Assembly: GCF_002198715.1 (NCBI RefSeq)
Contig: NZ_MWLK01000034.1
Location: 39,182-103,181 of the forward strand
Source of the DNA: Rhodomicrobium sp. R_RK_3
GTDB taxonomy: Bacteria; Pseudomonadota; Alphaproteobacteria; Rhizobiales; Rhodomicrobiaceae
Direction: 5' to 3'
Length of the DNA: 64,000 nt
The stretch's first letter is position 1; each line of letters begins with the position of its first letter. The notes below the pieces were generated by a model that saw only the letters and a program-made list of their open reading frames with translations, ran no database searches and was not told the origin of the DNA. Made by a program: the position numbers and the translations under genes. Below, one piece after another: positions 27,875-62,549 of the stretch.

Positions 27875-28010
27875 TTCCCTCTCCCATGGTGAGAGGGTTA
27901 GGGTGAGGGGGTAATCCCTCTCGGTTGGACGGACATCGCCTCACGGAGTGGCATTACCCCCTCATCCGGCGCTGGCGCGTGCCGCCCTCTCCCCCTGGGA
28001 GAGGGCTAGG
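27875..28010. repeat. Two CCCTCTCCC/GGGAGAGGG hairpin repeats (family 3) in a gene-free spacer
   Basis: CCCTCTCCC-ATGGT-GAGAGGG with GGGTGAGGGGGTAAT lies at 27875-27915, and the inverse arrangement CATTACCCCCTCA...CCCTCTCCCCCTGGGAGAGGG at 27951-28010. They fill most of the 490-bp spacer 27587-28077 between DUF2189 and the His-rich gene; nothing coding was found there. Confidence 0.75.
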
Positions 28011-28077: not shown

Positions 28078-28581
28078 CTATGCGGTGGTCAGGGCCAGCG
28101 CTTCGGTGAAGCTCAGCGAACGGATGCGGACGCCGTCGAAATAGATGAAGGCGAGGTTGCGCCGCCGGGAGACCATCTTGGCGGGCAGCGGGTCGTAGCG
28201 CATGGAGCCGCCACCGAGCTGCGGCGTCACTGCGCCGACATCGACGGCCTCTTCGGTCTCCACGCGCAGCAATTTCAACTCGTCGCCCTCGGCGGTGCGT
28301 CCCGCGAAGGGGATGCGGGCGAGGCGCAGGAAGCTGGTCGGGTCGGGCGCGGCGGAGAAGCCGGTCAGGAAGGCGGACTCGACGAGGTCGAAATCGGGCT
28401 CGCCTTCGGCAGCGTGGGAATGATTGGCGGAGGGGTCGTGCGGCGTCTGCCATTGCACGGCGGCCTGACGGCCCTTGGCATTGTGGCCGATACGGTGCGG
28501 CTGGGCGTGCTCATGATCGTGGTCGTGGCCGGCGTGATCGTGATCATGATCGTGCGAATGATGGGCATGGTCGCGGTGCAT
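28078..28581 (-). CDS. Histidine-rich protein encoded with guanidine hydrolase (candidate nickel carrier)
   Basis: 167 residues of no family I recognise. Thirteen of the first 30 residues are histidine (HHSHDHDHDHAGHDHDHEH), a pattern seen in nickel storage or delivery proteins; a second H-containing stretch (NHSHAAEGE) follows. The remaining 110 residues look folded and include SFLRLARIPFAGRTAEGDEL and RRRNLAFIYFDGVRIRSLSF. It lies 98 bp downstream of gdmH on the same strand. GdmH enzymes need nickel and, in cyanobacteria, dedicated HypA/HypB-like chaperones; none is visible here, so this protein may do that job. That role is inference. Confidence 0.75.
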   Translation of the reverse strand: MHRDHAHHSHDHDHDHAGHDHDHEHAQPHRIGHNAKGRQAAVQWQTPHDPSANHSHAAEGEPDFDLVESAFLTGFSAAPDPTSFLRLARIPFAGRTAEGDELKLLRVETEEAVDVGAVTPQLGGGSMRYDPLPAKMVSRRRNLAFIYFDGVRIRSLSFTEALALTTA

Positions 28582-28624
28582 TGCGGTTCTTTCTTATCCT
28601 GCGCCCTCGAGCGGCGGCGTCCGC

Positions 28625-28648
28625 GCCCTCTCCCGCGGGAGAGGGCAA
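28625..28648. repeat. Family 3 hairpin repeat between gdmH and the His-rich gene
   Basis: GCCCTCTCCCGCGGGAGAGGGC is a perfect palindromic hairpin without a U-run on either side. It may lower readthrough or stabilise the upstream gdmH message. Confidence 0.7.
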
Positions 28649-28679
28649 GAAACGTCTGCCTTATGTTGTGTTCCGATCC

Positions 28680-29900
28680 CTAAAACGCCACCGGCTTGTC
28701 GATGATGGCCTTGTGCTTGCCGAGCTTGCCATGCGCGACCATCGAGCCGAGCGCTTCGACCACGACGCGGACGCCGAGCAGCGCGGTGATGTCCGACGTG
28801 TCATAGGGCGGGCTGACTTCGACCACTTCAAGGCCGCAGAGCCCTTCCGCCGCGACCAGCCCGAGCAATTTCAGCGCCTCGCGCGGCAGGAAGCCGCCCG
28901 GCTCCGGCCAGCCGGTGCCCGGCACGAAGCCGCAATCGACCGAGTCCACGTCGAAGGAGATGTAGACCGCGTCGGTGTCCTTCCAGGCGAGCTCCAGCGC
29001 GATTTCGGCGGTTTTCTCGAGGCCGATCTTCTCGATGTCCTCGATGGTGAGCACATTGGTCTGCCGCCGGCGCGCCTCGGCGACGCCGTAGCGGGGCACC
29101 TGCCAGCCGCCGATGCCGAGCTGCACGAGATTGGTGGCCGACACATTCGGCATGTTGGTCGCCCAGAACCAGGGCGTGGTGTGCATGCGCTCGTCGAGAT
29201 CCTTTTCCTGGATGTCGATATGGCGGTCGAAATGGATGATGCCGATGCGCTTGGAGGTGCATTCGGCGATGCCGCGCACGCAGGGGAAGCCGATCGAATG
29301 GTCGCCGCCGAGCATCACCGGCAGCGCGCCCGACGAAAACACATGGCTGACGCCCTTCGAGATCTGGTCGAAGCTTTTCTCGAGGTTCGCCGGGATGGTG
29401 AAGACGTCGCCCGCATCGCACAGCGTCATCTGCTCGCGCAGGTCGACGCCCATCTCGTAATTGTACGGCGTGTAGAGCGCGGAGATGCGGCGGATGCCCT
29501 GCGGGCCGAAACGGGTGCCGGGCCGATAGGTGGTGCCGCTGTCGAAGGGAATGCCGACGACGGCCGCATCATATTTGCCGACATCTCGGACATTCTCGAC
29601 ATAGGGCGCCTTGAGGAAGGTATTGATGCCGGCGAAATGCGGCAGCTCCCCGCGCGCAAAAGTCGGGATCGATTTGTCGGTCAGGCAGTCCGCGCCGGGC
29701 AGGCCCATGTCGAGCGCCCATTGCTGCTCGCGCCGCCAGCCATCCTCCGACAGCCGCCCCTCGGCCTCGATGGCCTTCCAGCCGCGCGTCTCGCGGGCGT
29801 TGAAATCGGGGTGATGCGCGCGGGCGCGGCGGGCGTGAAGGGGAAAGCCGGGGCTGCGCCGGGAGACGGCGCGGAAGGGGTCAGACATGGACTGCTCCAT
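28680..29900 (-). CDS. gdmH: GdmH-type guanidine hydrolase (agmatinase/ureohydrolase family)
   Basis: 406 residues, longer than ordinary agmatinases through an N-terminal extension of about 100. The ureohydrolase metal site is complete: GGDHS (His201), HFDRHID (His223, Asp225, His227, Asp229) and SFDVDSVD (Asp317, Asp319). IDIQEKDLDERMHTTPW following the metal site and SVDCGFVPGTGWPEPGG are features I associate with Sll1077-like Ni-dependent guanidine hydrolases, which split guanidine into urea and ammonia. The strongest support is context: the same leftward unit encodes a TIGR03427-type ABC transporter and begins with a guanidine-I riboswitch. Start is ATG 29900 or 29888; both overlap the ATPase stop. 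Confidence 0.85.
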   Translation of the reverse strand: MEQSMSDPFRAVSRRSPGFPLHARRARAHHPDFNARETRGWKAIEAEGRLSEDGWRREQQWALDMGLPGADCLTDKSIPTFARGELPHFAGINTFLKAPYVENVRDVGKYDAAVVGIPFDSGTTYRPGTRFGPQGIRRISALYTPYNYEMGVDLREQMTLCDAGDVFTIPANLEKSFDQISKGVSHVFSSGALPVMLGGDHSIGFPCVRGIAECTSKRIGIIHFDRHIDIQEKDLDERMHTTPWFWATNMPNVSATNLVQLGIGGWQVPRYGVAEARRRQTNVLTIEDIEKIGLEKTAEIALELAWKDTDAVYISFDVDSVDCGFVPGTGWPEPGGFLPREALKLLGLVAAEGLCGLEVVEVSPPYDTSDITALLGVRVVVEALGSMVAHGKLGKHKAIIDKPVAF

Positions 29901-30678
29901 CTTGGTTGATGGTCTGTTCGGCCAAGAATTCGGCGGCGCGGAAACTGTCCAGCGCGGTGCCGTCCTTCAGCTTCAGATCATAGGTGATAGTGGCGCCGAA
30001 AGCTGTCGGATGCTGCGGGTCGTGGCGCACCTTGTCGAAGACGATGAGGCGCGTGCCGAGCCGGAAGGCCTCGGAAATATCATGGGTCACCATGAAGATG
30101 GTCATCCCGGTTTCACGCCAGATGTTTAGCAGAAGCGTCTGCATATCCAAGCGAATTCCGGGATCGAGGGCGCCGAAGGGCTCGTCCATGAGCAGGATTT
30201 TCGGGCGCTTCAGCAAGGCTTGCGCGATGGCGAGGCGCTGCTGCATGCCGCCGGAAAGCTGCGCCGGATAGCGGTCGCGCGCATGGCTGAGGCCGATTTT
30301 CGCCAGCATGGCGTCGGCGGCTTCTTCCGCCTCGCGCCTCGCCTTGCCGAATAGGCGGCCGAGGAAGGGCGACTGCTCGAAGGCGGCGGGGAGCGTCAGG
30401 TTCTGCATCGCCGTCAGATGCGGGAACACCGAATAGCGCTGGAAGACGATGCCGCGGTCGGGCGTCGGCTCGGCCGGAATAACCGCGCCTTCCATCAGCA
30501 CGCGGCCGCGCTGCGGGCGCTCCTGGCCGAGCAGCAGGCGCAGGAAAGTGGATTTGCCGCAGCCCGAAGCGCCGACGATAGTGCAGAAGCTGCCGCGCTC
30601 GACGGCGATCGACACGCGCTCCAGGATCGGCGCATCGCCATAGCGGACCCAGATGTTCTGCGCCTCGACGAAACTCAT
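29881..30678 (-). CDS. ABC transporter ATP-binding protein (guanidine uptake)
   Basis: 265 residues of the nitrate/sulfonate/taurine-type ATPase class: Walker A VGASGCGKST, signature QLSGGMQQRLAIAQALL, Walker B ILLMDEPFGALD, and the H-loop VTHDISEAF. The true start is ATG 30678, which overlaps the permease stop (ATGA); a longer frame upstream is only shadow of the permease. The C-terminal 60 residues (AATITYDLKLKDGT-like region) extend beyond the core. It energises uptake with the permease and binding protein encoded upstream; guanidine as substrate is inferred from gdmH and the riboswitch. Confidence 0.92.
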   Translation of the reverse strand: MSFVEAQNIWVRYGDAPILERVSIAVERGSFCTIVGASGCGKSTFLRLLLGQERPQRGRVLMEGAVIPAEPTPDRGIVFQRYSVFPHLTAMQNLTLPAAFEQSPFLGRLFGKARREAEEAADAMLAKIGLSHARDRYPAQLSGGMQQRLAIAQALLKRPKILLMDEPFGALDPGIRLDMQTLLLNIWRETGMTIFMVTHDISEAFRLGTRLIVFDKVRHDPQHPTAFGATITYDLKLKDGTALDSFRAAEFLAEQTINQDGAVHV

Positions 30679-31622
30679 AGCGCGCCGCCCTCGATATGCG
30701 CCCAGGCGTAGCGGCGCTTGGAGTAGAGATAGAGCAGCCGGTCGAGCGCGAAGGCGATCAGCGTGATCCAGGCGACATAGGGCAGGATGACGTCCATGGC
30801 GAGATAGCGGCGAACGAGGAAAATGCGGTAGCCGAGCCCGCCGGTCGAGGCGATGGCCTCGGCGGAGATCAGGAAAATCCACGCGGGCGCGAGGCTCAGC
30901 CGGATGCAAGTGATGAGCTTGGGCATGATCTGCGGGAAGACCACGCGCAGAATCATCTGCCAGGTCGAGGCGCCGAGCGTCGCCGCCTTGATGATCTGCT
31001 CCTGCGGGATTTCGGTCACCATTTGCGCCATGTAGCGCACCATGACGGGCGCGGTGCCGATGACGATGAGGACGATTTTCGAGGTCTCGCCGAGGCCGAA
31101 GATGATGAACAGGACGGGCAGGATGGTGATCGGCGGGATCAGCGAAATCGCGGCGACGAAGGGGGCGAGCGTTGCCCGGGCGCGCGGAATGAAGCCGGCG
31201 GGCACGCCGAGGCCCACGGCGATCATGGCGGAGATGGCGATGCCGCTGAACAGGCGCCCGAGGCTGGCGGCGGTGTCCGACCAGAGCAGGTAGTCGCCGG
31301 AGCGCACATCGGGCACGAAGGCGAATTCGTACATCGCCCGCGACATTTGCGCGAGCGAGGGCAGCAGCTTGTCGTCGGGGTTTGCCGAGAGGCGCAGATA
31401 GCTGCCGATGGAATAGGCGATGATGAGCGCGACGAAAAGCAGCGCGCCGAGCAGGATTTTTTCGCCCCGGCCGGGGTGCTGGTTGATCAGGCGCATGCGG
31501 CCGGACGCGGCGGCGGGAGCGTAAGCGGGCGCGGCGGCCGGTTCGCGGCTGCGCGGCAGGGGGCTGAGCGGCAGGGACGCTGGCTCATCGGCACCGATTT
31601 GCGAAATGGGACCAACCGACAT
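30675..31622 (-). CDS. ABC transporter permease (guanidine uptake)
   Basis: 315 residues from ATG 31622 (a TTG further upstream is less likely). After a proline/alanine-rich cytoplasmic start, a first helix ILLGALLFVALIIAYSIGSY and about five more follow. The EAA loop is TLGASTWQMILRVVFPQIMP, as in the SsuC/TauC/NrtB class. It is translationally coupled to the ATPase (ATGA). A 394-bp spacer holding a repeat element separates it from the binding-protein gene, so it may receive reduced readthrough or have an additional promoter. Confidence 0.9.
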   Translation of the reverse strand: MSVGPISQIGADEPASLPLSPLPRSREPAAAPAYAPAAASGRMRLINQHPGRGEKILLGALLFVALIIAYSIGSYLRLSANPDDKLLPSLAQMSRAMYEFAFVPDVRSGDYLLWSDTAASLGRLFSGIAISAMIAVGLGVPAGFIPRARATLAPFVAAISLIPPITILPVLFIIFGLGETSKIVLIVIGTAPVMVRYMAQMVTEIPQEQIIKAATLGASTWQMILRVVFPQIMPKLITCIRLSLAPAWIFLISAEAIASTGGLGYRIFLVRRYLAMDVILPYVAWITLIAFALDRLLYLYSKRRYAWAHIEGGAL

Positions 31623-31815
31623 GAAATCTACGCGGCCTTGCCGCCCCTTGTCATCCTGCAAGCTGCGGGACGCGATTGTTCCGAATGTGCAAACATCGCG
31701 CTTGATCCGATGCCGTGCTCGGCATCCCCCTCACCGTCAAGGAAACGGCCCAAACGAGAGGCGCCGAACTCGCCCCCATTTGCTGCCTTCGCGCTTCGTC
31801 GGGCCTCCCCCTCCC

Positions 31816-31920
31816 GTCGTCCCGGGCGGCCGTCAGGCCGGACCGGGATCCACTCGCAGATCAGCAAGCACAGTGCCAGCCGAGAGGCTAGTAGGCCCCG
31901 GCTCTGACGGCCGGGGCGAC
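31816..31920. repeat. 105-bp double-hairpin repeat, copy in the guanidine operon (family 2)
   Basis: Begins GTCGTCCCGGGCGGCCGTC and ends CTGACGGCCGGGGCGAC, so GTCGYCCCGG and its complement form terminal inverted repeats, each opening a local hairpin. It lies within the spacer 31623-32016 between the permease start and the binding-protein stop; apart from this element I see no feature there. Confidence 0.85.
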
Positions 31921-32016
31921 GGGATTGAGGTTGCCTGATGGTGCAAAGGTCTCCTTGCGGGAGGGAGGCCTAGCTGCATCCGAGCAAAGCACAATGCTAG
32001 AAGCGAAAACCCTGTC

Positions 32017-33075
32017 CTACAGCTTGCCGCCCGCCGCCAGCTCCATATAGCTCGGATCGAAGCGCAGGTTGACCTTCGACTTGTCGCCGATGATCTTGCC
32101 GCCGGGGAACTCCATGCCGACATCCTCCGCGCTCTTGGCGCCGGTGCCAAGAATGCCGTGGTCGAACAGGAACTTGGCCACGAACTGCATGGTCTGCGGC
32201 AGCTTGGCGTCCTTGGTGAACGCCACGCCCTCGGCCGGCTTGTAGAACATCTGCGTGGTCTTGAGCTGCCCGTCGAAGCCGGCCAGATCCGTGCCGGACG
32301 CCTTGGCCATCTCCTCTTTCGCGGCCTTGGCGGCGGCGTCGCTGCCCGACATGATGCCCATCAGCTCGTACCACGCGCCGACCAGCGCCTTGCCGAAATC
32401 GGGGTTGTCCTTCAGCGTCGCGGTGTTGACCATCATGATGTCGATGATCTCGCCGGGGATCGCGGAGGAATTGAACACCAGCTTGGAATTCGGCATCGCC
32501 GCGATCTCGGACAGCAGCGGGTTCCAGGTGACGACGGCGCTGACATCGGCGGTCGAATAGGCGGCGACCATGTCGGCGTCGGAGGTGTTGACGACGGTGA
32601 TATCCTTCTCCGACAGCTTTGCCCCTTCGAGCGCCCGCGCCAGCAGATAATGCGACACCGACAGCTCGACCAGATTGACCTTCTGGCCCTTGATGTCGGC
32701 GAGCTTGTCCTTGCCCTTCAGGATGATGCCGTCATTGCCGTTGGAATAATCGCCGACGATCAGCGCGGTGGTGTCGACGCCGCCACCGGCCGGGATGGAC
32801 AGCGCGTCCATATTGGTCATCGAGCAGCCGTCATAGGCGCCGGCGGTGTATTGGTTGATCGATTCGACGTAGTCGTTGATCTGCACGATGTCGACGGTGA
32901 TGCCGTATTTGTCGGCCCATTTCTTCATGATGCCGGAGCTTTGCAGATGGCCCCAGGGCATCCAGCCGACATAGATCGACCAGCAGACCTTGAAATCTTT
33001 TTTCGGCGCGGCCTCGGCGGGCGCGGCGCTGATGAGGAAGAATGCGGCGAGTATCAGGCCTAGCATGCGGCGCAT
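32017..33075 (-). CDS. ABC transporter substrate-binding protein (TIGR03427-like, guanidine uptake)
   Basis: 352 residues with a signal peptide (LGLILAAFFLISAAPAEA). The mature start KDFKVCWSIYVGWMPWGHL is that of the periplasmic binding proteins annotated 'urea carboxylase region' (TIGR03427), now understood to belong to guanidine-linked gene clusters. MTNMDALSIPAGGGVDTT and VGDYSNGNDGIILKGKDKL are further conserved stretches of NMT1/SsuA-like folds. ATG 33075 has an AAGGAG site 9 nt upstream and lies about 95 nt beyond the riboswitch, making this the first gene of the operon and the one most directly controlled by it. Confidence 0.92.
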   Translation of the reverse strand: MRRMLGLILAAFFLISAAPAEAAPKKDFKVCWSIYVGWMPWGHLQSSGIMKKWADKYGITVDIVQINDYVESINQYTAGAYDGCSMTNMDALSIPAGGGVDTTALIVGDYSNGNDGIILKGKDKLADIKGQKVNLVELSVSHYLLARALEGAKLSEKDITVVNTSDADMVAAYSTADVSAVVTWNPLLSEIAAMPNSKLVFNSSAIPGEIIDIMMVNTATLKDNPDFGKALVGAWYELMGIMSGSDAAAKAAKEEMAKASGTDLAGFDGQLKTTQMFYKPAEGVAFTKDAKLPQTMQFVAKFLFDHGILGTGAKSAEDVGMEFPGGKIIGDKSKVNLRFDPSYMELAAGGKL

Positions 33076-33169
33076 CGGTCAGCTCTCCTTATTCGTTTGC
33101 GACCAGCGGTTGTCTTCGCAAGCGGTTTGGAGCGCGACCGGGAGTTGAGGTTTGCGCCCGCAAACCTGT

Positions 33170-33287
33170 CGTGCAGTCCTCTCCCGGGATTTTGGCCCGC
33201 CGTGTCTCCGGGCAACACACCCGGTCTGCGCCTCTCGGACCAGCGCCGCTTTTTGGGATGCGGCCGGAACCCTAGACGCTCTGCACG
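33170..33287 (-). promoter_or_regulatory. Guanidine-I (ykkC) riboswitch
   Basis: Read on the minus strand, the RNA contains the ykkC conserved words in order: CUAGGGUUCCGG, then a hairpin, CUGGUCCGAGAGGCGCA, a GCCCGG hairpin, and ACACGGCGGG-CCAAAA-UCCCGGGAGA. A seven-base P1 stem closes it (CGUGCAG at 33287-33281 with CUGCACG at 33176-33170). Directly after P1 there is an 8-bp hairpin (AGGUUUGC/GCAAACCU, 33167-33148) without a U-run. It senses guanidinium and normally turns on genes for its export or breakdown; here it precedes the importer and gdmH. Confidence 0.95.
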
Positions 33288-33297
33288 GCAGGCAAGA

Positions 33298-33313
33298 AGC
33301 AAGTCCGGTGCCA
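33298..33313 (-). promoter_or_regulatory. Sigma-54 (-24/-12) promoter of the guanidine operon
   Basis: The minus strand reads TGGCACC-GGAC-TTGCT, matching the consensus TGGCACG-N4-TTGCW at all but one position with correct spacing. Counting 12 bases on from the GC places the transcription start at about 33287, the first base of the riboswitch P1 stem. This implies NtrC-type (nitrogen limitation) activation; no enhancer site was identified with confidence. Confidence 0.8.
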
Positions 33314-33395: not shown

Positions 33396-33440
33396 ACTCC
33401 CTCTCCCAGGGGAAGAGGGTTGGGGTGAGGGGGTAATGCC
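33396..33440. repeat. Family 3 hairpin repeat
   Basis: CCCTCTCCCAGGGGAAGAGGG followed by TTGGGGTGAGGGGGTAATGCC. One of three repeat copies that occupy most of 33314-33772, upstream of the guanidine operon promoter; no gene is seen in this stretch. Confidence 0.7.
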
Positions 33441-33465: not shown

Positions 33466-33572
33466 GTCGTCCCGGACGCCGCGCAGCGGCGAGCCGGGAC
33501 CCAATCCCGCATCCGCGAGCACTGCGGCAAGTGGATAAGCGAGTGGGCCCCGGCTCTTACGGCCGGGGCGAC
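33466..33572. repeat. 107-bp double-hairpin repeat (family 2)
   Basis: Starts GTCGTCCCGG and ends GGCCGGGGCGAC. Its reverse complement aligns with the copy at 62635-62740 through the middle as well (CCACTTGCCGC and GATTGGGTCCCGGCTC are shared), so the two are the same element in opposite orientations. Confidence 0.9.
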
Positions 33573-33628
33573 GGCGGTGGGGATCTTGGCGAGGACTGGG
33601 ATGGCCCGCTGTGCCTTACCGATCGTTT

Positions 33629-33685
33629 GTTACCCCTCACCCGGCACGCTTCGCGCGCCGCCCTCTCCCACTGGGAGAGGGCAAG
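33629..33685. repeat. Family 3 hairpin repeat
   Basis: TTACCCCTCACCCGGC followed about 20 bp later by CCCTCTCCCACTGGGAGAGGG. Same arrangement as at 27951-28010. Confidence 0.75.
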
Positions 33686-35175: not shown

Positions 35176-36501
35176 TTACTCCGCCGCGGAATATTCGACA
35201 ATCTGCTCGCGATCCTGGTGCAGGCTGCGATAGGGCAGCGCGCCGCGCGCCTTGTTGCCGACCATCCGCTTGAACTGGATGGTGCGGATGAATTCGCGGA
35301 TGCGCGGCTGGATCTCGGTGCGCCAGCGCGTGCCGTTGAAGACGCCATAATGGCCGACGCCCGGCTGCACATAATGATATTTCTCATCGACCGGGATGTT
35401 GCGGCACAGGTCATGCGCCGCCTCGGTCTGGCCGAGCCCGCAAATATCGTCCTTCTCGCCCTCGACCGTCATCAGCGCCGTCTGGGTGATGGCGGCGCAA
35501 TCGACGCGCTCGTTGCGGTGCACCAGCTTGCCGTCGGGCAAGGCGTGCTCCTGGAACACGGTGGCGACGGTCTGGAGGTAGAACTCGGCCGGCAGATCCA
35601 TCACGGCCAGATATTCCTCATAGAAGGTCTGGTGCTGCTGGACGCTGTCGCAGTCGCCCTTGACGAGGTTCTGGAACAGGTTGCGGTGGGCGTTCACATG
35701 CCGGTCGAGATTCATCTGCATGAAGCCGGTGAGCTGCACGAAGCCGGGATAGACCTTGCGCATGAAGCCCGGATAGGGAAACGGCACGTGCGAAATGACG
35801 TTTTTCTCGAACCATTCGATCGGCCGCGTCTTGGCGAGCTTGTTGACGACGGTCTCGTTGCGGCGGGTGTCGATCGGGCCGCCCATCAGGGTGATCGAGG
35901 CGGGCTGCATCTCGTCCTTGCGCGCCGCCATGATCGCGGTCGCTGCAAGCACTGGCACGGCCGGCTGGCAGACGGCAATGACATGGGTATTCGGCCCGAG
36001 GAAATGCACGAATTCGATGATGGTATCGATGAAATCGTTGAGGTCGAAGGGCCCATTGGTCATCGGCACGTTGCGCGCGTCGGCCCAGTCGGTGATGTAG
36101 GTGTTGTGCTCGCGGATCATCGCCTCGACGGTGCCGCGCAGGAGCGTGGCGTAATGGCCCGACATCGGGGCGACGATCAGCACCTTGGGATCGTAGCGGC
36201 GGCCGATAACGTTTACGTCGCGGTCGAAATGCAAAAGATTGCAGAAGGGCGTCTTGTAGACGATCTCCTCGTTGATCGGCACCGGCATGCCGAAGATCTT
36301 GGTTTCCTTGATGCCGAATTTGGGCTTGGCGTAGCGGCGGGTGACGTTTTCGAAGACTTCGCAGCTCGCCGCGATCATGCGCGGCAGGAGCATATCGCGG
36401 AAGGGATTGAGCGGGGATTGGAGCTGCATCTTGAGCCCCTGGGCCCCCCAGCGCAAGGGCGTGACCGCCGCGTGGGCCAGCTCATAGGAATGGTAGTTCA
36501 T
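35176..36501 (-). CDS. phaZ: Intracellular polyhydroxyalkanoate depolymerase
   Basis: 441 residues from ATG 36501, giving the standard N-terminus MNYHSYELAHAAVTPLR; a longer upstream frame is unmatched. The PHB_depo family (TIGR01849) shows LIVAPMSGHYATLLRGTVE, ITDWADARNVPM, the catalytic cysteine in HVIAVCQPAVPVLAAT, and the C-terminal YVQPGVGHYGVFNGTRWR with the catalytic histidine. It mobilises stored poly-3-hydroxybutyrate granules to hydroxybutyrate oligomers, so the organism stores PHB. No phasin or synthase gene is adjacent. Confidence 0.95.
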   Translation of the reverse strand: MNYHSYELAHAAVTPLRWGAQGLKMQLQSPLNPFRDMLLPRMIAASCEVFENVTRRYAKPKFGIKETKIFGMPVPINEEIVYKTPFCNLLHFDRDVNVIGRRYDPKVLIVAPMSGHYATLLRGTVEAMIREHNTYITDWADARNVPMTNGPFDLNDFIDTIIEFVHFLGPNTHVIAVCQPAVPVLAATAIMAARKDEMQPASITLMGGPIDTRRNETVVNKLAKTRPIEWFEKNVISHVPFPYPGFMRKVYPGFVQLTGFMQMNLDRHVNAHRNLFQNLVKGDCDSVQQHQTFYEEYLAVMDLPAEFYLQTVATVFQEHALPDGKLVHRNERVDCAAITQTALMTVEGEKDDICGLGQTEAAHDLCRNIPVDEKYHYVQPGVGHYGVFNGTRWRTEIQPRIREFIRTIQFKRMVGNKARGALPYRSLHQDREQIVEYSAAE

Positions 36502-36776
36502 CGCGTCATGCCCTCCCAGGCACCGGCTCCGCCGGCTTGTATGCAACCGCGATCTCAGAGTATGCGGCAGCATTTTGTGCAGCGCAATAGCCATTCTTGG
36601 CGGCGGGAAGCCCTTTGTACGCATGGCCTAAAAGCAAATTTCGCGATGGCGCCCGGTAGATTTTTCCAAGTATTGCGGGGCTATTCTTTCGCAGTGCGAA
36701 ACGCTCATCGCCGATGACCAGGAAGGTTTGGCCAATGCTGCGCCTGTCCAAAACTTGCGGCGGAATCGCACGCGGC

Positions 36777-53927: not shown

Positions 53928-54773
53928 TTGACGGTGATCGTGCGGGACCGGGACTTGCAGCGCGTCGACGGTGCGGCGCGCATCGCCGTCAAGGGAGAGC
54001 TGCGCCGCGTGGCGATTACCGATCTCTATCAGCGCTCGCCCTGCAAGGTGCTGCTGCCGCGCATCGACGGCCAAGATCTGCGCGAGGCGGTCTTCCTCAA
54101 CACGACGGGCGGCATTGCGGGCGGCGACCGGCTGCGCTTCGAGGTCTCGGCCAGCGGCGACGCGACCTTCACGGCGACCACCCAGACCGCCGAGCGCGTC
54201 TACCGCGCCATCGACGCGGCCGGACGGGTCGAGACACGCATCGAGGCGCGCGATGCCGCGACGCTCGAATGGCTGCCGCAGGAAACCATTCTGTTCGACC
54301 GCGGACGGCTGCATCGCAGCACGGAAGTCCGCTTAAGCCATAGTGCCCGGCTGATCGCCATGGACTGGCTGCTGCTCGGCCGTAGCGCCTCGGGCGAGAC
54401 CGTGCGAAGCGGCGCGTTTCGCGACAATTGGCGCGTCTTTCGCGACGGTCGGCTGGTCTGGGCCGACGCCCTGCGCCTCGATGGCGACATTGCCGGACTC
54501 GCGTCGCGCGCAGCGCTGCTCGGCGGTCACACGGCCATCGCCACCATCCTTTACGGCGCCGCCGACGCGGCCGGCCAGCTCGACCGCGCCCGCGACCTGC
54601 TCGCGCGCCCCGGCTGCAAAGCCGGCGCAACCGTCGTCAACGGGCTGATGATCTGCCGCTTCGCGGCGAAGGCCGCCGCCGAGCTTCGGGCCGCGGTCAG
54701 TGATTTCTTGCGCGCCTTTCGTGACGGGCTGGACGGCTTCGCCGCGCCGCTGCCCCGCGTCTGGGCGTGCTGA
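53928..54773 (+). CDS. ureD: Urease accessory protein UreD
   Basis: 281 residues. UreD scaffolds the UreFG complex on apo-urease for nickel insertion. Family motifs: LYQRSPCKVLLPRIDGQDLR, FLNTTGGIAGGDRLRFEV, TATTQTAERVYRA and LEWLPQETILFDRGRLHR. The start is TTG 53928 with GGAG 7 nt upstream; no ATG is available before the conserved core. First gene of the urease unit, 208 bp after urtE on the same strand. Confidence 0.95.
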   Translation: MTVIVRDRDLQRVDGAARIAVKGELRRVAITDLYQRSPCKVLLPRIDGQDLREAVFLNTTGGIAGGDRLRFEVSASGDATFTATTQTAERVYRAIDAAGRVETRIEARDAATLEWLPQETILFDRGRLHRSTEVRLSHSARLIAMDWLLLGRSASGETVRSGAFRDNWRVFRDGRLVWADALRLDGDIAGLASRAALLGGHTAIATILYGAADAAGQLDRARDLLARPGCKAGATVVNGLMICRFAAKAAAELRAAVSDFLRAFRDGLDGFAAPLPRVWAC

Positions 54774-54791
54774 CATTGCGGGAGAGAGACC

Positions 54792-55094
54792 ATGAATCTG
54801 ACGCCACGGGAGAAGGACAAGCTGATGATCGCGGTCGCCGCGATGGTGGCGCGGGGGCGGCTCGCGCGCGGCGTCAAGCTGAACTACCCTGAAAGCGTCG
54901 CGCTGATCACCGACTTCGTCATGGAAGGCGCCCGCGACGGCCGCGCCGTCGCCGATCTGATGGCCGATGGGGCGAAGGTCGTCAGCCGCGATCAGGTCAT
55001 GGTCGGGATCGCCGAGATGATCCACGAAGTCCAGGTCGAAGCGACGTTCCCCGACGGGACGAAGCTTGTCACCGTGCATCATCCGATCCGCTAG
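54792..55094 (+). CDS. ureA: Urease subunit gamma
   Basis: 100 residues, the standard length. [20 protein letters not shown] at the start, [19 protein letters not shown], and [18 protein letters not shown] are nearly invariant. Structural subunit of the nickel enzyme. ATG with GGGAGAGAGA upstream, 18 bp after ureD. An inverted-repeat element and the DUF1272 gene separate it from ureB, an unusual arrangement. Confidence 0.98.
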
Positions 55095-55122
55095 GAGGTC
55101 GAACTTGAGAACCAACCTTATT

Positions 55123-55230
55123 CGCAATCCCCGCGAAGGCGGGGATCCAGTACGCTGCCGCGGGTGAGGTTGGGCAGAGTGCCAATTTAGACTTTGTGAT
55201 TACTGGATTCCCGCCTTCGCGGGAATTTCG
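55123..55230. repeat. 108-bp inverted-repeat element inside the urease operon, copy 3 (family 1)
   Basis: Left end CGCAATCCCCGCGAAGGCGG, right end CCGCCTTCGCGGGAATTTCG. The interior, reverse-complemented, aligns with copy 4 at 60083 (TCACAAA, TCTGCC and CTGCGGC at matching positions), so the two are opposite orientations of one element. It lies between ureA and the DUF1272 gene. Confidence 0.93.
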
Positions 55231-55288
55231 ACAGAGAGAAATGGCGGACGGATGACAGGTAAATCCCAAACCGCTCTTGGAGACGCCG

Positions 55289-55540
55289 ATGCTTGAACTC
55301 CGTCCATCCTGCGAATGCTGCGACCGGGACCTGCCGCCATCCTCGCCGGATGCGCGCATCTGCACCTACGAATGCACCTTCTGCGCCGATTGCGTGGAGA
55401 CGCGGCTCGCCGGCGGCCTCTGTCCCAATTGCGGCGGCGAGTTGGTGCGCCGCCCCGTCCGCCCAGACGCGATGCTGCAAAAACATCCCGCCTCGACCCG
55501 GCGCGTTCTCAAACCCGAAGGCTGCGGAGCCCCCACATGA
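55289..55540 (+). CDS. DUF1272 zinc-ribbon protein inserted between ureA and ureB
   Basis: 83 residues from ATG 55289 (TTGGAG upstream). The DUF1272 family is short and cysteine-rich: [20 protein letters not shown], then [13 protein letters not shown] and [15 protein letters not shown], giving nine cysteines that probably bind two zinc ions. No function is known. Its TGA overlaps the ATG of ureB (ATGA), so ureB translation is likely coupled to it. Confidence 0.9.
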
Positions 55541-55848
55541 TCCCAGGCGAAATTTTTACGGCCGATGGCGACATCGAGTTGAATGCCGGCCGTCCCTCGA
55601 TCACGCTGACCGTCGCCAATACCGGTGACCGTCCGGTGCAGGTCGGCAGCCATTATCATTTCTACGAAACCAACGGCGCGCTGAGCTTCGACCGCGAGGC
55701 CGCGCGCGGCATGCGCCTCGACATCGCGGCGGGGACGGCGGTGCGCTTCGAGCCCGGCCAGACGCGCGATATCCAACTGGTTCCCTATGCCGGGGCGCGC
55801 GAAATTTACGGCTTCAACCAACGGGTTATGGGCAGGCTTGACCCCTAA
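55537..55848 (+). CDS. ureB: Urease subunit beta
   Basis: 103 residues, standard length. [20 protein letters not shown], then [40 protein letters not shown] and [16 protein letters not shown] are the conserved stretches. Structural subunit; assembles with UreA and UreC. Start overlaps the DUF1272 stop. Confidence 0.98.
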
Positions 55849-55890
55849 AGCGATCCGTGTTCATGTTCACCTCCCGTTCTGGAGGAGAAG

Positions 55891-56112
55891 ATGTATACGG
55901 GTTATTGGATTGTTAATAATCGAATCTACGGCCCCCGAACACAGGGCCAATATTGGATTGACAAGGGCTGGATTTATGGTCCGAAGAATTCCGGCAAATA
56001 CTGGATCGAAGCTGGCCGCATTCTCGGCCCGAAGCAGAATCAGGAATATTGGGTGGAGGACGGCTATATTTATGGTCCGTCCGCACAGCTTCCATTCATG
56101 TCGGGAGAATGA
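55891..56112 (+). CDS. Small protein of four 16-residue YWI..IYGP repeats (beta-flower-like)
   Basis: 73 residues from ATG 55891 with a strong GGAGGAGAAG site. Almost the whole protein is four exact-length repeats whose first residues are Tyr5, Tyr21, Tyr37 and Tyr53, each of the form YW(I/V)x4IxGPx5. The pattern (aromatic-hydrophobic, turn, I-x-G-P) suggests short beta-hairpins arranged with fourfold pseudo-symmetry and resembles what has been called a four-fold beta-flower; that assignment is from memory of the fold, not a search. AT-richer codon use than ureB. Unknown role, between ureB and ureC. Confidence 0.8.
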   Translation: MYTGYWIVNNRIYGPRTQGQYWIDKGWIYGPKNSGKYWIEAGRILGPKQNQEYWVEDGYIYGPSAQLPFMSGE

Positions 56113-56136
56113 TCTGACTTTGGCGGGCGGGCGCTG

Positions 56137-56523
56137 ATGTCCGCCCGCCTCTTCCCCACGCACCGGGTGATGTGGCTGCCGCTCGGCTATCCATGGCGCC
56201 CGGCATTGGCGCGCGTGACGCATTGTTGCCAGCGCATGGCGATGGCGCTGGAATTCACCTGCACCCAGCACGCCGACCCGATGGACTGCCCCGACACGGC
56301 GCTGATCTATCACGAGCCCTTCGACGAATACGGCATCCCGATCCGCGACGGCGGCACGGGCTATCTGCTGATCGACAACTGCCCCTGGTGCGGCACCCGC
56401 CTGCCCGCCTCGCAGCGCGACCGCTGGTTCGACGAACTGGAGGCCGCCGGCCTCGACGAGAGCGACGCCGATGCGCTCCCCGCCGCCTATCTCACCGCGG
56501 AATGGCGCAGCCGGCGAGCATAA
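56137..56523 (+). CDS. DUF6980-like cysteine-containing protein
   Basis: The frame gives 128 residues from ATG 56137; family resemblance begins only at HCCQRMAMALEFTCTQHADP, so a start at the GTG just before it or the later ATG is possible. DCPDTALIYHEPFDEYGIPI, RDGGTGYLLIDNCPWCGTRL and PASQRDRWFDELE are the recognisable parts. CC near the start, CTQH and CPWCG could bind zinc. Function unknown. Next to the LysE gene (10-bp gap). Confidence 0.75.
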   Translation: MSARLFPTHRVMWLPLGYPWRPALARVTHCCQRMAMALEFTCTQHADPMDCPDTALIYHEPFDEYGIPIRDGGTGYLLIDNCPWCGTRLPASQRDRWFDELEAAGLDESDADALPAAYLTAEWRSRRA

Positions 56524-56533
56524 GAGGAAAATC

Positions 56534-57166
56534 ATGGATTTTGCCGCCGTTCTGGCGTTCGCGCTCACCACCTTCGTCATCGACATCACCCCCGGACCGG
56601 CCGTGCTGAAGGTGACGGGCGACGCGATGGGCAATGGCTGGCGGCCCGCGCAATTGGGCATCATCGGCATCCTCGCCGCCAACGCCATCTATGTCATGGC
56701 GGCGGCGCTCGGGCTTGCCGGACTTTTCCTCGCCTTCCCCGCGCTGTTCGACGTGGTCAAATGGGCCGGCGTCGCTTATCTGGCCTGGATCGGCATCGGC
56801 GAAATCGTGAGCGCGTGGCGCGCCTCGGAGACGGAACTGCGCACCCGCCCGGCGGCGACGCCGACGCAGCTATTCCGGTCGAGCTTCGTCATGCAGATCG
56901 GCAATCCGAAAGCCCTGCTCTATTACTGCGCCATCCTGCCGGCCTTCGCCGCTCTGACCAGTGCTCCGGCCTTCTGGATCGTCGCGCTCGGCTTCACGGG
57001 CCTGTTCACGGAATATGCGGTGCTGTTCATCTACAGCCTGCTCGGCAGCCGCCTTGGCCGTTTCGCCACGCGCGCGTCGGTCAAGCGGGTCATCGACGCC
57101 CTGGCCGGCATGCTGCTGATCGGCGCGGCGGCGATGATCGCCCGCACCTCCCTCCAGAGCCGCTGA
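56534..57166 (+). CDS. LysE/RhtB family amino-acid exporter
   Basis: 210 residues from ATG 56534 (AGAGGAAA upstream). Six predicted helices and the LysE motif near the N-terminus (TFVIDITPGPAVLKVTGDAM), then KWAGVAYLAWIGIGE and SFVMQIGNPKALLYYCAILP, match the RhtB/LysE superfamily. Such proteins export amino acids or small amines by proton exchange. Substrate unknown. It is inserted between ureB and ureC. Confidence 0.92.
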   Translation: MDFAAVLAFALTTFVIDITPGPAVLKVTGDAMGNGWRPAQLGIIGILAANAIYVMAAALGLAGLFLAFPALFDVVKWAGVAYLAWIGIGEIVSAWRASETELRTRPAATPTQLFRSSFVMQIGNPKALLYYCAILPAFAALTSAPAFWIVALGFTGLFTEYAVLFIYSLLGSRLGRFATRASVKRVIDALAGMLLIGAAAMIARTSLQSR

Positions 57167-57262
57167 GGTCGCGCCATGCCGCCAGACATCGCCAGCGCGG
57201 CCTGCATCGGAGCTTACGGCCGGGATGACAATTGCGCGGGCGGCGGGCATAGAGTGAATGCC

Positions 57263-58027
57263 ATGAGAGCCCCGACCGAGCCCTATTCACCCCGCCCGCG
57301 CCGCGCCACGGACGCCAAGCCGGTCGCCGTCCGCAAAAACCTCGGCCTCTTGGGCGATGGCGATGAAATGTACCTCCTCGCCGATATCGAACGCAGCTTC
57401 GGCGTCAGGCTGACCGACGCCGATCTGCGCAACGTGCGCAGTCTCGGCGACCTGGACGATGCGATCTGGCGTCGGCTCGGCAGGATCTATGCCGGGAATA
57501 CGCGCTGCATGGCCGCCATGGCCTTCTATGCCCTGCGCCGCACGCTGAAGACCGGCAACCCCGATTTCCGCATTACCCCGGCAACCCCGCTCAAAGCCTT
57601 CGACATGCCGCCGAAGGTGCTGGCATCCGCCCTTGAAAAACGCGAGGGCCTGCAAATGCGCTTCGACATCGGTTGGCTGGCGTGGATCGGCTGGCTGGCG
57701 CAATTCGGCTGGATTATCCTGCTCTGGACGCTGATTTCCGGCCCCTTCGATTGGGCGCTGCCTTCGATCCTTGCCGTCATCCTCGGCATCGCGGCGATGG
57801 GCGTGGACCGAGGCGCTTATGCGCGCGGCGATCGAGTCGGCGATCTCGCGATGCGGCTATCGCGCCAGAATTTCGCGGCGTTCGCGGCGAAGGGCGGCCG
57901 GGTCGACCGGACCGGCGCCTGGACCGCCCTGCGCCAGCTCGCCGCCGATCTGCAAAAACTTCCCCCAGATGAAATCGGGCGCGACACATTGCTGATTGGC
58001 AAGCCGCGCTGGTTCTCGCGAGAATAA
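57263..58027 (+). CDS. Hypothetical membrane protein with an acyl-carrier-like N-terminal region
   Basis: 254 residues from ATG 57263; codons upstream in the same frame are unlikely to be translated. Residues 35-70 (YLLADIERSFGVRLTDADLR, VRSLGDLDDAIWRRL) look like helices of an acyl-carrier-protein domain, but no DSL phosphopantetheine serine is present. Two transmembrane helices follow at about residues 138-180 (WLAWIGWLAQFGWIILLWTL and WALPSILAVILGIAAMGV). The C-terminal part (AFAAKGGRVDRTGAWTALRQ) is soluble. Unknown function; precedes ureC by 69 bp. Confidence 0.7.
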   Translation: MRAPTEPYSPRPRRATDAKPVAVRKNLGLLGDGDEMYLLADIERSFGVRLTDADLRNVRSLGDLDDAIWRRLGRIYAGNTRCMAAMAFYALRRTLKTGNPDFRITPATPLKAFDMPPKVLASALEKREGLQMRFDIGWLAWIGWLAQFGWIILLWTLISGPFDWALPSILAVILGIAAMGVDRGAYARGDRVGDLAMRLSRQNFAAFAAKGGRVDRTGAWTALRQLAADLQKLPPDEIGRDTLLIGKPRWFSRE

Positions 58028-58096
58028 ATCCCTCCGATGCAAGCCTTTACTGCCAAGAGTCCCCGGACATCCCACCATAGCCGTTGAGGTTCTCCC

Positions 58097-59809
<1,713 letters not shown>

Positions 59810-59863
59810 TCGGACGCGAATGCTGGCAGATTGCGGTGCAGCAACAACAAAAAGGAGCCAGCC

Positions 59864-60076
59864 ATGCTGCACGGAGCCCGCAACGACATCCCGGCCAAGA
59901 TCCTCTCCATCAAGCGCGGCGGCGTGATGTGCCAGGTCGAGGTCAAGCTGGAGGGGACCGAGTATCACATGACCTCGGTGATGACGAATGACTCGCTGGA
60001 CGCTCTCGGCGTGAAGGAAGGCGACAAGGTGCATGTGGTGGCGAAGGCGGTGAACGTGCTGCTGATGCGGGAGTAA
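59864..60076 (+). CDS. Mop-domain (molbindin-like) protein in the urease operon
   Basis: 70 residues from ATG 59864 with AAGGAG 10 nt upstream. A single Mop/TOBE domain: ARNDIPAKILSIKRGGVMCQ, VEVKLEGTEYHMTSVMTNDS, and LGVKEGDKVHVVAKAVNVLL. Such free-standing molbindins bind molybdate or tungstate oxyanions at subunit interfaces. Nothing else in the operon involves molybdenum, so the placement between ureC and ureE is unexplained; oxyanion storage or a chance insertion are both possible. Confidence 0.88.
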   Translation: MLHGARNDIPAKILSIKRGGVMCQVEVKLEGTEYHMTSVMTNDSLDALGVKEGDKVHVVAKAVNVLLMRE

Positions 60077-60082
60077 CAATTC

Positions 60083-60191
60083 TCGAAATCCCCGCGAAAG
60101 CGGGGATCCAGTAGTCACAAACTCGAAATTCGCGGTCTGCCTGACCTGGCGTGCTGCGGCGTACTGGATCCCCGCTTTCGCGGGGATTTCG
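60083..60191. repeat. 109-bp inverted-repeat element inside the urease operon, copy 4 (family 1)
   Basis: The 30-bp ends (60083-60112 and 60162-60191) are perfect reverse complements, beginning CGAAATCCCCGCGAAAGC and ending GCTTTCGCGGGGATTTCG. Each end also contains its own CCCCGC-GAAA-GCGGGG hairpin. The 49-bp interior ends in CTGCGGCG, as in the other copies. It lies 6 bp after the molbindin stop codon. Confidence 0.96.
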
Positions 60192-60294
60192 GTAGCGAAT
60201 GAGATGCCTCAGCGAGCCCAAATCCGTCGAAGGGCGGCTTTGAAAAGCCGGAATTAACTTGATAAACGAAGCGTTGCGTAATCCGGAGCGAGTG

Positions 60295-60798
60295 ATGCGA
60301 GCGATTGACTATCTGCCGAAGGGCGAATGGCCGGACCAGACCGGCACCGACAGCCTGCTGCTGGATTTCGACGCCCGCCACCGCCGCCGCATCAGCCTGA
60401 CCACCGTCGCCGGCGCTGAAATCCTGCTCGACCTGCCGAAGGCCGTCGCGATGGCGGATGGCGGCGGCCTCCGGCTCGAAGACGGTAGCTGGCTACGCGT
60501 CAAGGCCGCGCCCGAGCCGCTGCTCGAAGTCACCGCCGCCGATGCCGCACGGCTCGCCCGCGTCGCATGGCATCTGGGCAATCGCCATCTGCCCGCCGAG
60601 ATCACCGGCGGCGCCATCCGCATCCGGCCGGACCACGTCATCGAGGCGATGCTTATGCAGCTCGGCGCGGCGGTGGCGCATATCGAAGCCCCCTTCCAGC
60701 CGGAAGGCGGCGCCTATGGCGGCCAAGGCCAGACGGCGAGCCATTCGCATGGCCACAGCCACGGCCATCATCATCACCACGGTGATCATGAGCATTGA
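60295..60798 (+). CDS. ureE: Urease accessory protein UreE (nickel chaperone)
   Basis: 167 residues from ATG 60295 (GGAG upstream; TTG 60259 is a weaker alternative). The N-terminal part has LLLDFDARHRRRISLTTVAG and ILLDLPKAVAMADGGGL, the C-terminal metal domain WHLGNRHLPAEI and DHVIEAMLMQLGAAVAHIEA. The last 20 residues include eleven histidines (HSHGHSHGHHHHHGDHEH), a nickel-binding tail. It delivers Ni2+ to UreG. Overlaps ureF by 11 bp. Confidence 0.96.
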   Translation: MRAIDYLPKGEWPDQTGTDSLLLDFDARHRRRISLTTVAGAEILLDLPKAVAMADGGGLRLEDGSWLRVKAAPEPLLEVTAADAARLARVAWHLGNRHLPAEITGGAIRIRPDHVIEAMLMQLGAAVAHIEAPFQPEGGAYGGQGQTASHSHGHSHGHHHHHGDHEH

Positions 60799-61483
60799 CG
60801 CCGTAAAACTGCTGCGGCTGCAAAGCTGGCTGTCGCCCGCCTTTCCGACCGGCGCCTTCAGCTATTCGCACGCGCTGGAATGGGCCGTCGAGGACGGCAC
60901 GGTCACGGACCGCGCCGCGCTGGTCGACTGGCTCGACGCCGATATCCGCCACGGCTCCGGACGCAGCGACGCCATCCTGCTCGCCTGCGCCCACCGCGCC
61001 CTCGCCTTGCCCGGCCTCGACGACTTCCTCGCCGTCGCCGAACTGGCCGGCGCCCTGCGCGCGACCTCCGAATTCGCGCTCGAAGCCGGCCAGCAGGGCA
61101 CCGCTTTCCTCTCCACCATCCGCAAAGCCTGGCCCGGCGCCGCGCTCGACGCCGCCGCGACCGCCCTCGCCGCCCGCCGGATCACGCCTGCCCTTCCCAT
61201 CGCGACGGCCATCGCCTGCGCCGCCCACGCCATCCCGCTGAGCCTCGCCCTGCCCGCCTATCTGCACGCTACGGCGGCCAATCTCGTCAACGCCGCCGTC
61301 CGGCTCGTGCCGCTCGGCCAGACCGACGGCCAGATCGCCATCGCCGCGCTGGAGCCCGCCATCATCGACACCGCGCGCGAGGCCGAAGCCGCGAGGCTCG
61401 ACGAGATCGGCTCGGCCGCCTTCACGATCGACATCGCCTCGATGCGGCATGAGACCCAATATACGAGGCTGTTCCGCTCATGA
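60788..61483 (+). CDS. ureF: Urease accessory protein UreF
   Basis: 231 residues from ATG 60788, an all-helical protein linking UreD and UreG in the activation complex. LLRLQSWLSPAFPTGAFSYS with HALEWAVEDG is the diagnostic N-terminus, followed by ATSEFALEAGQQGTAFL and, near the end, RLVPLGQTDGQIAIAALEP. Overlaps ureE at the 5' end and the DUF3995 gene at the 3' end (ATGA). Confidence 0.96.
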   Translation: MSIDAVKLLRLQSWLSPAFPTGAFSYSHALEWAVEDGTVTDRAALVDWLDADIRHGSGRSDAILLACAHRALALPGLDDFLAVAELAGALRATSEFALEAGQQGTAFLSTIRKAWPGAALDAAATALAARRITPALPIATAIACAAHAIPLSLALPAYLHATAANLVNAAVRLVPLGQTDGQIAIAALEPAIIDTAREAEAARLDEIGSAAFTIDIASMRHETQYTRLFRS

Positions 61484-61920
61484 GTTTCGTCGCCGCCACG
61501 CTGACCGTCATCCTCGCCGCCATCGCCGCGCTGCACGCCTATTGGGCGCTCGGCGGGCTCTGGCCCGGCCGCGACCAGACCGAGCTCGCCCGCACCGTCG
61601 TCGGCAATGTCGGCGTCACCCATATGCCACCCGCGAGCCTCACCGCGATCGTCGCGGCCTTGATCGCCGCTGTCGCCGCATGGCCGCTGCTGATCGCGCC
61701 GCTTTTGCGCCTCGTGTTGCCGCATGTCGTCATCGCCGCCGCGACCATCCTGATCGGCGCGGTGTTCATGCTGCGCGGCCTGCTCGGCTATAGCGAGGCC
61801 ATGCGCCGCCGCCACGCGGCCGAGCCTTTCGCCACCTATAACCGGCTCTATTATTCGCCGCTGTGCCTGGCTTTGGGCGGCGGTTTTCTCATCCTGGCAT
61901 CGAGTGGAGGCATGGCATGA
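61480..61920 (+). CDS. DUF3995 membrane protein between ureF and ureG
   Basis: 146 residues with four predicted helices: [60 protein letters not shown] and a C-terminal one. [14 protein letters not shown] and [20 protein letters not shown] match DUF3995, a family of unknown role. It is linked by ATGA overlaps at both ends (ureF stop and ureG start), so it is clearly translated as part of the urease operon; a nickel- or urea-related membrane role is possible but inferred. Confidence 0.87.
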
Positions 61921-62549
61921 GCACGCCGCAGCATGGCCCTTTGCGCATCGGCATTGGCGGCCCGGTCGGATCGGGCAAGACGGCGCTGGTCGAGGCGCTA
62001 TGCAAGCGCATGCGCGGCGCCTACGACCTCTTCGTCATCACCAACGACATCTACACCAAGGAGGATCAGCAGATCCTCACCCGCGCCGGGGCGCTGGCGC
62101 AAGAGCGGATCATGGGCGTCGAGACCGGCGGCTGCCCGCACACCGCGATCCGCGAGGATGCTTCGATCAACCTCGTCGCCCTGGATGAGATGAACGCAAA
62201 ATTCCCGGCGGCGGAGTTGTGCCTGATCGAATCCGGCGGCGACAATCTGGCCGCCACCTTCAGCCCGGAGCTGGCCGACCTGACGCTCTACGTCATCGAC
62301 GTGGCGGCGGGCGAGAAAATCCCGCGCAAGGGCGGGCCGGGCATCACGCGGTCGGACTTGCTCATCATCAACAAGATCGACCTCGCCCCACTGGTTGGCG
62401 CGGACCTGGGCGTGATGGAGAGCGATACGAAACGGATGCGCGGCGAGCGGCCTTTCGTGTTCACGAATCTCAAGCTTGGGACGGGTTTGGACGAGGTCGT
62501 GAAGTTCATCGTGAAAGCGGGTGGTTTGGAGCAGAAGCCGCTTGGCTGA
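61917..62549 (+). CDS. ureG: Urease accessory protein UreG (GTPase)
   Basis: 210 residues from ATG 61917. SIMIBI-class GTPase energising nickel insertion: P-loop [18 protein letters not shown], nickel-binding Cys73-Pro-His75 in [23 protein letters not shown], and the base-specificity motif NKIDLAP. Last gene of the urease operon. Confidence 0.98.

Follow-up and report, generated by a model that had tools for sequence, protein, structure and literature searches.

A predicted guanidine import and hydrolysis operon in Rhodomicrobium encodes a histidine-rich candidate for nickel supply to its hydrolase

The use of guanidine has recently been recognised as part of the nitrogen cycle. Here, we analyse an operon linked to a guanidine-I riboswitch in a 64,000-nucleotide (nt) stretch of the genome of Rhodomicrobium sp. 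R_RK_3 (contig NZ_MWLK01000034.1, positions 39,182–103,181), which we refer to as the window and number from its first letter. A guanidine-I aptamer on the minus strand precedes genes for the binding protein, permease and ATPase of an ATP-binding cassette (ABC) transporter, for a hydrolase of the GdmH type and for a histidine-rich (His-rich) protein. We regard it as very probable that the switch, transporter and hydrolase serve guanidine sensing, import and breakdown, and as likely that the operon as a whole scavenges guanidine nitrogen with the help of the His-rich protein, which would deliver nickel to the hydrolase.

Operon organization and riboswitch

A preliminary description of this DNA had listed a TIGR03427-like binding protein, a permease, an ATPase, a GdmH-type ureohydrolase and a His-rich protein as one leftward unit. 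Open reading frames (ORFs) and family matches bear this unit out, with all of its parts present on the minus strand essentially where that description had placed them (28078–33313; Table 1).

Table 1 Features of the guanidine operon and of the urease gene cluster in the window
Feature	Position	Strand	Basis
Guanidine-I (ykkC) riboswitch aptamer	33179..33286	-	Rfam RF00442, 71.7 bits (gathering score 63)
Leader from aptamer to first gene, with CTCCCGG as possible switch element	33076..33178	-	Sequence and minimum-energy fold; putative function
Periplasmic binding protein, TIGR03427 type, probable guanidine binder	32017..33075	-	TIGR03427, 563.4 bits; ligand suggested by context
ABC transporter permease (TauC-like)	30675..31622	-	PF00528, 77.5 bits; probable ATG at 31622 chosen from sequence
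ABC transporter ATPase	29881..30678	-	PF00005, 113.8 bits (searched as 29881–30666); start chosen from sequence
GdmH-type guanidine hydrolase	28680..29900	-	Solved relatives, T124/W331 and tree; alternative start 29888
His-rich protein, 167 amino acids, no described family, proposed GdmH nickel-maturation partner	28078..28581	-	Linkage and co-occurrence; putative function
Urease genes UreD, UreA, UreB, UreC, UreE, UreF and UreG, separate unit	53928..62549	+	Pfam and NCBIfam matches

The gene starts in the operon are a reading from sequence. The ATPase ORF in the program-made list (start 30909) begins too far upstream; the ATG chosen here overlaps the permease stop codon as ATGA, and both possible gdmH starts overlap the end of the ATPase gene, so these three genes are probably translationally coupled. 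Roughly 395 nt separate the binding protein and permease genes and 98 nt separate gdmH from the His-rich gene, with interspersed repeats in both gaps. Palindromic repeats of this sort, comprising a GCCCTCTCCC-GGGAGAGGGC type and a second GC-rich type, occur before, within and after the operon (27877–28009, 28632–28649, 31875–31922, 33399–33419, 33527–33574 and 33652–33685).

A ykkC/guanidine-I leader had been proposed at 33170–33287 from conserved words. The covariance model confirms it: the match exceeds the gathering score (E value 8.9e-11 in the window), covers model positions 1–107 completely as a full aptamer and is the only guanidine-I match in the 5.79-megabase (Mb) genome. Context in relatives was counted in 80 loci, the best 80 of 553 confirmed hydrolase candidates (at least 77% identity), a set that is biased towards close relatives because it was chosen by similarity. 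Our own model, R1, places a same-strand aptamer upstream of gdmH in 76 of these 80 loci, which makes the window aptamer more than a chance match. R1 was built from seven sequences including that of the window, whose R1 score of 105.7 bits thus comes from one of its own building sequences; Rfam's own model matches six of the seven loci given to it. Two of the four loci lacking the aptamer lie at contig ends, with DNA that starts just before the operon (L037 and L108); the others are L072 and L110.

Between aptamer and first gene, the leader contains CTCCCGG, which can pair with CCGGGAG of the aptamer and is a possible switch element. Of 77 leaders (the window counted), 34 contain CTCCCG within 120 nt, against 5.7 expected by shuffling, and 16 of these 34 have the same offset and seem to be close relatives. 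The fold of the window leader is no better than that of shuffled sequences (z −1.14), and a pattern scan of the leader returned no terminator-like site. Shine–Dalgarno pairing had a mean of 0.7 over the 40 leaders with a script-found site, a value that has no control and is not used as evidence.

The hydrolase and its transporter

Among solved structures, the window hydrolase is closest to 7esr/7oi1 (547 bits) and then to 9fek (522 bits), with a guanidinobutyrase next at 175 bits; 7OI1 is the Synechocystis GdmH and 9FEK the guanidinase of Nitrospira inopinata (PMC11410670). The window hydrolase is 66% identical to the former, 61% to the latter and no more than 34% to any other ureohydrolase in the comparison. 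In a 29-row tree, a GdmH-like group of 23 rows that includes the window hydrolase is split from six other ureohydrolases (support 99/98). Within this group, the window enzyme belongs to a clade of 16 alphaproteobacterial rows (100/99) that stands next to Synechocystis GdmH; long outgroup branches leave the deep order uncertain. The nearest hydrolase among the relatives, at 92% identity, is that of a Bauldia metagenome-assembled genome (MAG; Kaistiaceae).

This placement with GdmH and not with agmatinases agrees with the preliminary description, which had cautioned that an agmatinase label would mislead. The window hydrolase scores under the agmatinase cut-offs (TIGR01230, 160.4 versus 174.3 bits; PRK02190, 202.2 versus 302), whereas elsewhere in the genome two proteins exceed the TIGR01230 cut-off and a third exceeds that for arginase. 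Four plasmid relatives carry the annotation 'agmatinase family protein', and our reading corrects the Limimaricola records, which label the genes as an agmatinase family protein, a putative urea transporter and a hypothetical protein.

Guanidine specificity in Synechocystis depends on T97 and W305 (PMC11410670). T124 and W331 of the window hydrolase align with this pair, the numbering being transferred by alignment with a Protein Data Bank (PDB) chain index offset of 2, and the pair is kept in all 80 related hydrolases. On these grounds the enzyme is a GdmH-type guanidine hydrolase by predicted activity. Because substrate change is easy among ureohydrolases, and because a 57%-identical relative (genome G140) has serine at the tryptophan position, one might suppose that the enzyme mainly acts on another guanidino compound, such as methylguanidine, with guanidine only a signal; the identity to two characterised guanidinases, the threonine/tryptophan (T/W) pair and the guanidine aptamer in the leader make this extremely improbable.

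The G140 hydrolase itself (L160, 5584–7508) contains internal His-rich stretches and has a HupE/UreJ gene directly downstream. The 14 kilobases (kb) read around it contain no guanidine-I match, and the genome gave no hit to the His-rich partner. Possibly this is a nickel-dependent ureohydrolase that acts on a different guanidino compound and carries its metal arm within the enzyme. A hydrolase from Embleya, with threonine at the W305 position, groups with it.

The binding protein passes the curated TIGR03427 cut-off (333.9 bits). NCBIfam names this family 'putative urea ABC transporter substrate-binding protein', which would suit a urea importer. We consider urea import very unlikely, however, as the transporter genes follow a guanidine aptamer, accompany gdmH, lying upstream of it, in 62 of the 80 loci, and have a counterpart in Synechocystis where an ABC importer has been assigned to guanidine (PMC11410670, PMC12186494). 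The earlier proposal of a guanidine importer thus gains support from context, guanidine being the predicted ligand.

The 18 loci without the three upstream ABC genes comprise the two contig ends noted above, L039 (aptamer 7.4 kb upstream, ABC genes more distant), L072 (neither aptamer nor ABC genes) and 14 loci, from Ancylobacter, two Xanthobacteraceae MAGs and Hansschlegelia, in which the aptamer directly precedes gdmH and the partner gene. These 14 loci indicate that gdmH and its partner are the smallest unit. A whole-genome aptamer search in six genomes without adjacent ABC genes returned one guanidine-I match each for L039, L043, L045, L066 and L080 and none for L072.

The His-rich partner and nickel supply

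The His-rich protein, already listed as an operon member in the preliminary description and encoded directly downstream of gdmH, goes beyond the account given there, and we consider it the most informative part of the operon. The partner gene has a tblastn match in all 80 loci. In 79 of them it is the next gene after gdmH, on the same strand and no more than 362 nt away; in the remaining locus (L084) the two are 7 kb apart and on opposite strands. Codon differences between members concentrate at third positions (0.335 versus 0.141 and 0.092, 51 pairs), a purifying pattern that supports a real protein-coding gene.

Co-occurrence was assessed in two partly overlapping genome samples that were not chosen by similarity. 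Of the 398 genomes in the phylum sample, seven encode GdmH (E up to 1e-100), and exactly these seven also match the profile of the His-rich protein (E up to 1e-3). The order sample (297 genomes) gave GdmH (E up to 1e-120) in 31 genomes and, by a single-sequence search, the His-rich protein in 33, with an overlap of 29. Reading the locus of G127 revealed a partner directly downstream of gdmH that this search had missed, raising the count to 30 of 31; the only GdmH genome without a partner is G140. The partner is thus present in all 30 order-sample genomes whose GdmH-like enzyme has the tryptophan, although in G072 the match stops short of the threonine position. Weak hits in four genomes lacking GdmH (E 2e-4 to 4e-4) were set aside: the locus of G241 encodes a different protein with a His run, and those of G153, G209 and G268 were judged on their short matches (33, 30 and 68 residues of the query, with a stop inside the third). 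Fisher tests of the association in the order sample gave p values of 1e-33 on raw counts and 8e-42 after the locus readings, both of which ignore the shared ancestry of the genomes. Partner matches also accompany the GdmH-like gene in all seven alphaproteobacterial records among 11 plasmid records that carry one. Within the Alphaproteobacteria sampled, the co-occurrence of GdmH and the His-rich protein is near-perfect. Sinorhizobium fredii and Bradyrhizobium sp. BTAi1 are among the hosts of this pair.

The protein consists of a His-rich arm, GHN and QWQTPH motifs and a conserved core, with the core more conserved than the arm. Uninterrupted members contain 7 to 28 histidines. In one relative (L114, 10154–10558), the His run is C-terminal instead of N-terminal, a layout that suggests a portable metal-binding tail. 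In the predicted structure, the core exceeds 90 in predicted local distance difference test score (pLDDT) within the full model (modelled alone, mean 89.7 and predicted template modelling score (pTM) 0.74), and the arm is of low confidence and lacks secondary structure.

Searches for known relatives gave little. Neither Pfam nor NCBIfam has a family matching the window protein, 46 relatives give marginal family hits from only one or two members, and a profile of these 46 retrieves nothing from the PDB sequences up to an E value of 1. In a homology test, the core reached 0.2% with HypA and 0.15% with UreG, and unrelated controls (the binding protein and GdmH) stayed below 1%. UreE gave 46–55% over 30–33 columns, a possible homology; a UreE profile brought no gain, and the signal fell to 0.4%, within the range of shuffles, under another match-state setting. 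Foldseek returned best E values of 0.28 (full model) and 0.50 (core), with none at or below 0.001, and VIA-align gave best Z scores of 6.3 and 4.5, a middling level by that tool. Tudor/SH3-like pieces recur among the weak matches, and we make no claim to that fold or to a novel one. A peptide-pattern search in contigs, for which the repetitive arm is ill-suited, produced 591 pattern matches and no confirmed relative. In the accessible text of the openly licensed literature, we found no histidine-rich protein associated with a guanidinase or a guanidine riboswitch, and mention elsewhere is possible.

Related enzymes frame a possible role for such a protein. Synechocystis GdmH depends on nickel, and genes for nickel-delivery proteins accompany its own (PMC12186494, PMC11410670); metformin hydrolase requires co-expression of HypA/HypB and has HupE downstream (PMC11399263); and for the N. 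inopinata guanidinase no such chaperones were found, its nickel loading being described as unclear (PMC11410670). The Rhodomicrobium enzyme would likewise depend on nickel. HypA (PF01155) has no match in the window's genome (99.5% complete), and the cobW-family matches of the genome are CobW, a YjiA-like GTPase, UreG and a weak Era, leaving no HypB. A HupE/UreJ-like nickel-permease gene lies near the pair in 38 of the 80 loci, following the partner on the same strand within 1.5 kb in 30 and lying upstream in eight more, with family membership tested by Pfam for one locus (L046). Taken with the linkage to a nickel enzyme, these features suggest that the His-rich protein is probably a nickel-maturation factor used instead of HypA/HypB.

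The operon might also be as described above while the His-rich protein serves GdmH in a structural or regulatory role, or buffers metal to protect the cell, rather than delivering nickel. Such a role would fit a core that is more conserved than the arm and matches neither HypA nor UreG, the lack of a metal preference readable from the sequence where tested, and the presence of HypA in some partner-bearing genomes. Yet the gene is linked to a nickel enzyme and not to metal-resistance genes, often has a HupE/UreJ-like neighbour and keeps its His-rich arm at either terminus, and we judge a role outside nickel delivery possible but rather unlikely.

Several further observations weigh against nickel delivery by a dedicated partner. 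His-rich arms bind zinc, cobalt and copper too. Of the 30 genomes in the order sample that have the partner, 7 also have HypA, compared with 73 of the other 267 (p 0.83); in those seven it lies on a different contig from gdmH or at least 256 kb away. None of the four HupE/UreJ matches of the window's genome is near the operon, and a palindromic repeat sits in the gap between gdmH and the His-rich ORF. The partner gene is uninterrupted in 78 of the 80 loci, being split over two frames in L062 and containing Ns in L052. Outside Pseudomonadota, where the survey covered plasmid records, none of the four actinobacterial relatives has a partner match, and three of these have the T/W pair. The N. inopinata guanidinase, moreover, works without known chaperones (PMC11410670). 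GdmH therefore does not always need the His-rich protein, as these actinobacterial relatives and the N. inopinata enzyme indicate.

One of these plasmids, from Rubrobacter indicoceani (L163, 5792–13131), carries a guanidine-I aptamer, a GdmH-like gene, a sodium:solute symporter, a formamidase and urease genes in a row; it lacks a match to the His-rich partner, and its transporter type differs from that of the window.

We favour nickel delivery and propose the following mechanism, the transport and enzymatic steps of which draw on family knowledge. Guanidine would bind the aptamer and switch on the leftward unit, the ABC importer would bring guanidine into the cell, GdmH would split it into urea and ammonia, and urease encoded around 21 kb from the leader would break down the resulting urea. 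The His-rich protein would hold nickel on its flexible arm and hand it to GdmH through its folded core. This role resembles the job of HypA/HypB-type chaperones for metformin hydrolase and in Synechocystis, whose nickel-delivery proteins we take to be of that type. In a broader form of the proposal, which we hold to have an even chance, the protein founds a new guanidinase-only nickel-maturation family that replaces HypA/HypB along the alphaproteobacterial GdmH branch, its flexible arm capturing nickel and its small core, for which the searches here gave no fold match, docking on GdmH. A partner that has been overlooked in the same way may also serve other guanidinase lineages that lack HypA/HypB, comammox Nitrospira among them.

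Neighbouring features and comparison with known systems

The urease genes (53.9–62.5 kb) occupy a stretch that also includes DUF6980 and DUF3995 ORFs. The window's own UreE (60259–60798, plus strand) ends in a His-rich tail. A match to RF02514 (5_ureB_sRNA; 58249–58538, minus strand, 121.9 bits) was rejected as a separate RNA, as it lies antisense inside ureC (58097–59809, plus strand); it recurs antisense to ureC in the Rubrobacter plasmid (L163, 11154–11443) and probably reflects conservation of urease coding sequence. Elsewhere in the window, a PhaZ polyhydroxyalkanoate depolymerase gene lies upstream of the operon (35176–36624, minus strand; TIGR01849, 611 bits), with no evident link to it, and an EcpR1 small RNA (RF02500) is found at 6310–6418 (plus strand, 79.1 bits).

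Among the closest described systems, the gdmH operon of Synechocystis sp. PCC 6803 shares guanidine-I control, an ABC importer, GdmH and the T/W pair with the operon in the window. It includes two nickel-delivery proteins, however, whereas here no HypA or HypB was found in the genome and a His-rich protein of a different family stands in their place. The guanidinase locus of N. inopinata likewise combines guanidine-I control with a related guanidinase, but has an APC permease instead of an ABC importer, and no known nickel chaperones (PMC11410670). The metformin hydrolase operons of Aminobacter and Pseudomonas resemble the window in joining a nickel ureohydrolase to maturation genes with HupE nearby, and differ in their HypA/HypB chaperones, heteromeric enzyme and substrate (PMC11399263). 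The urease nickel chaperone UreE has a His-rich tail on a folded domain, as does the His-rich protein; the two lack robust sequence homology, and the arm of the His-rich protein is mostly N-terminal. The operon itself is of a known kind, and its accessory protein is what differs, offering a direct candidate for how a guanidinase may be supplied with nickel without HypA/HypB, the step described as unclear for N. inopinata (PMC11410670).

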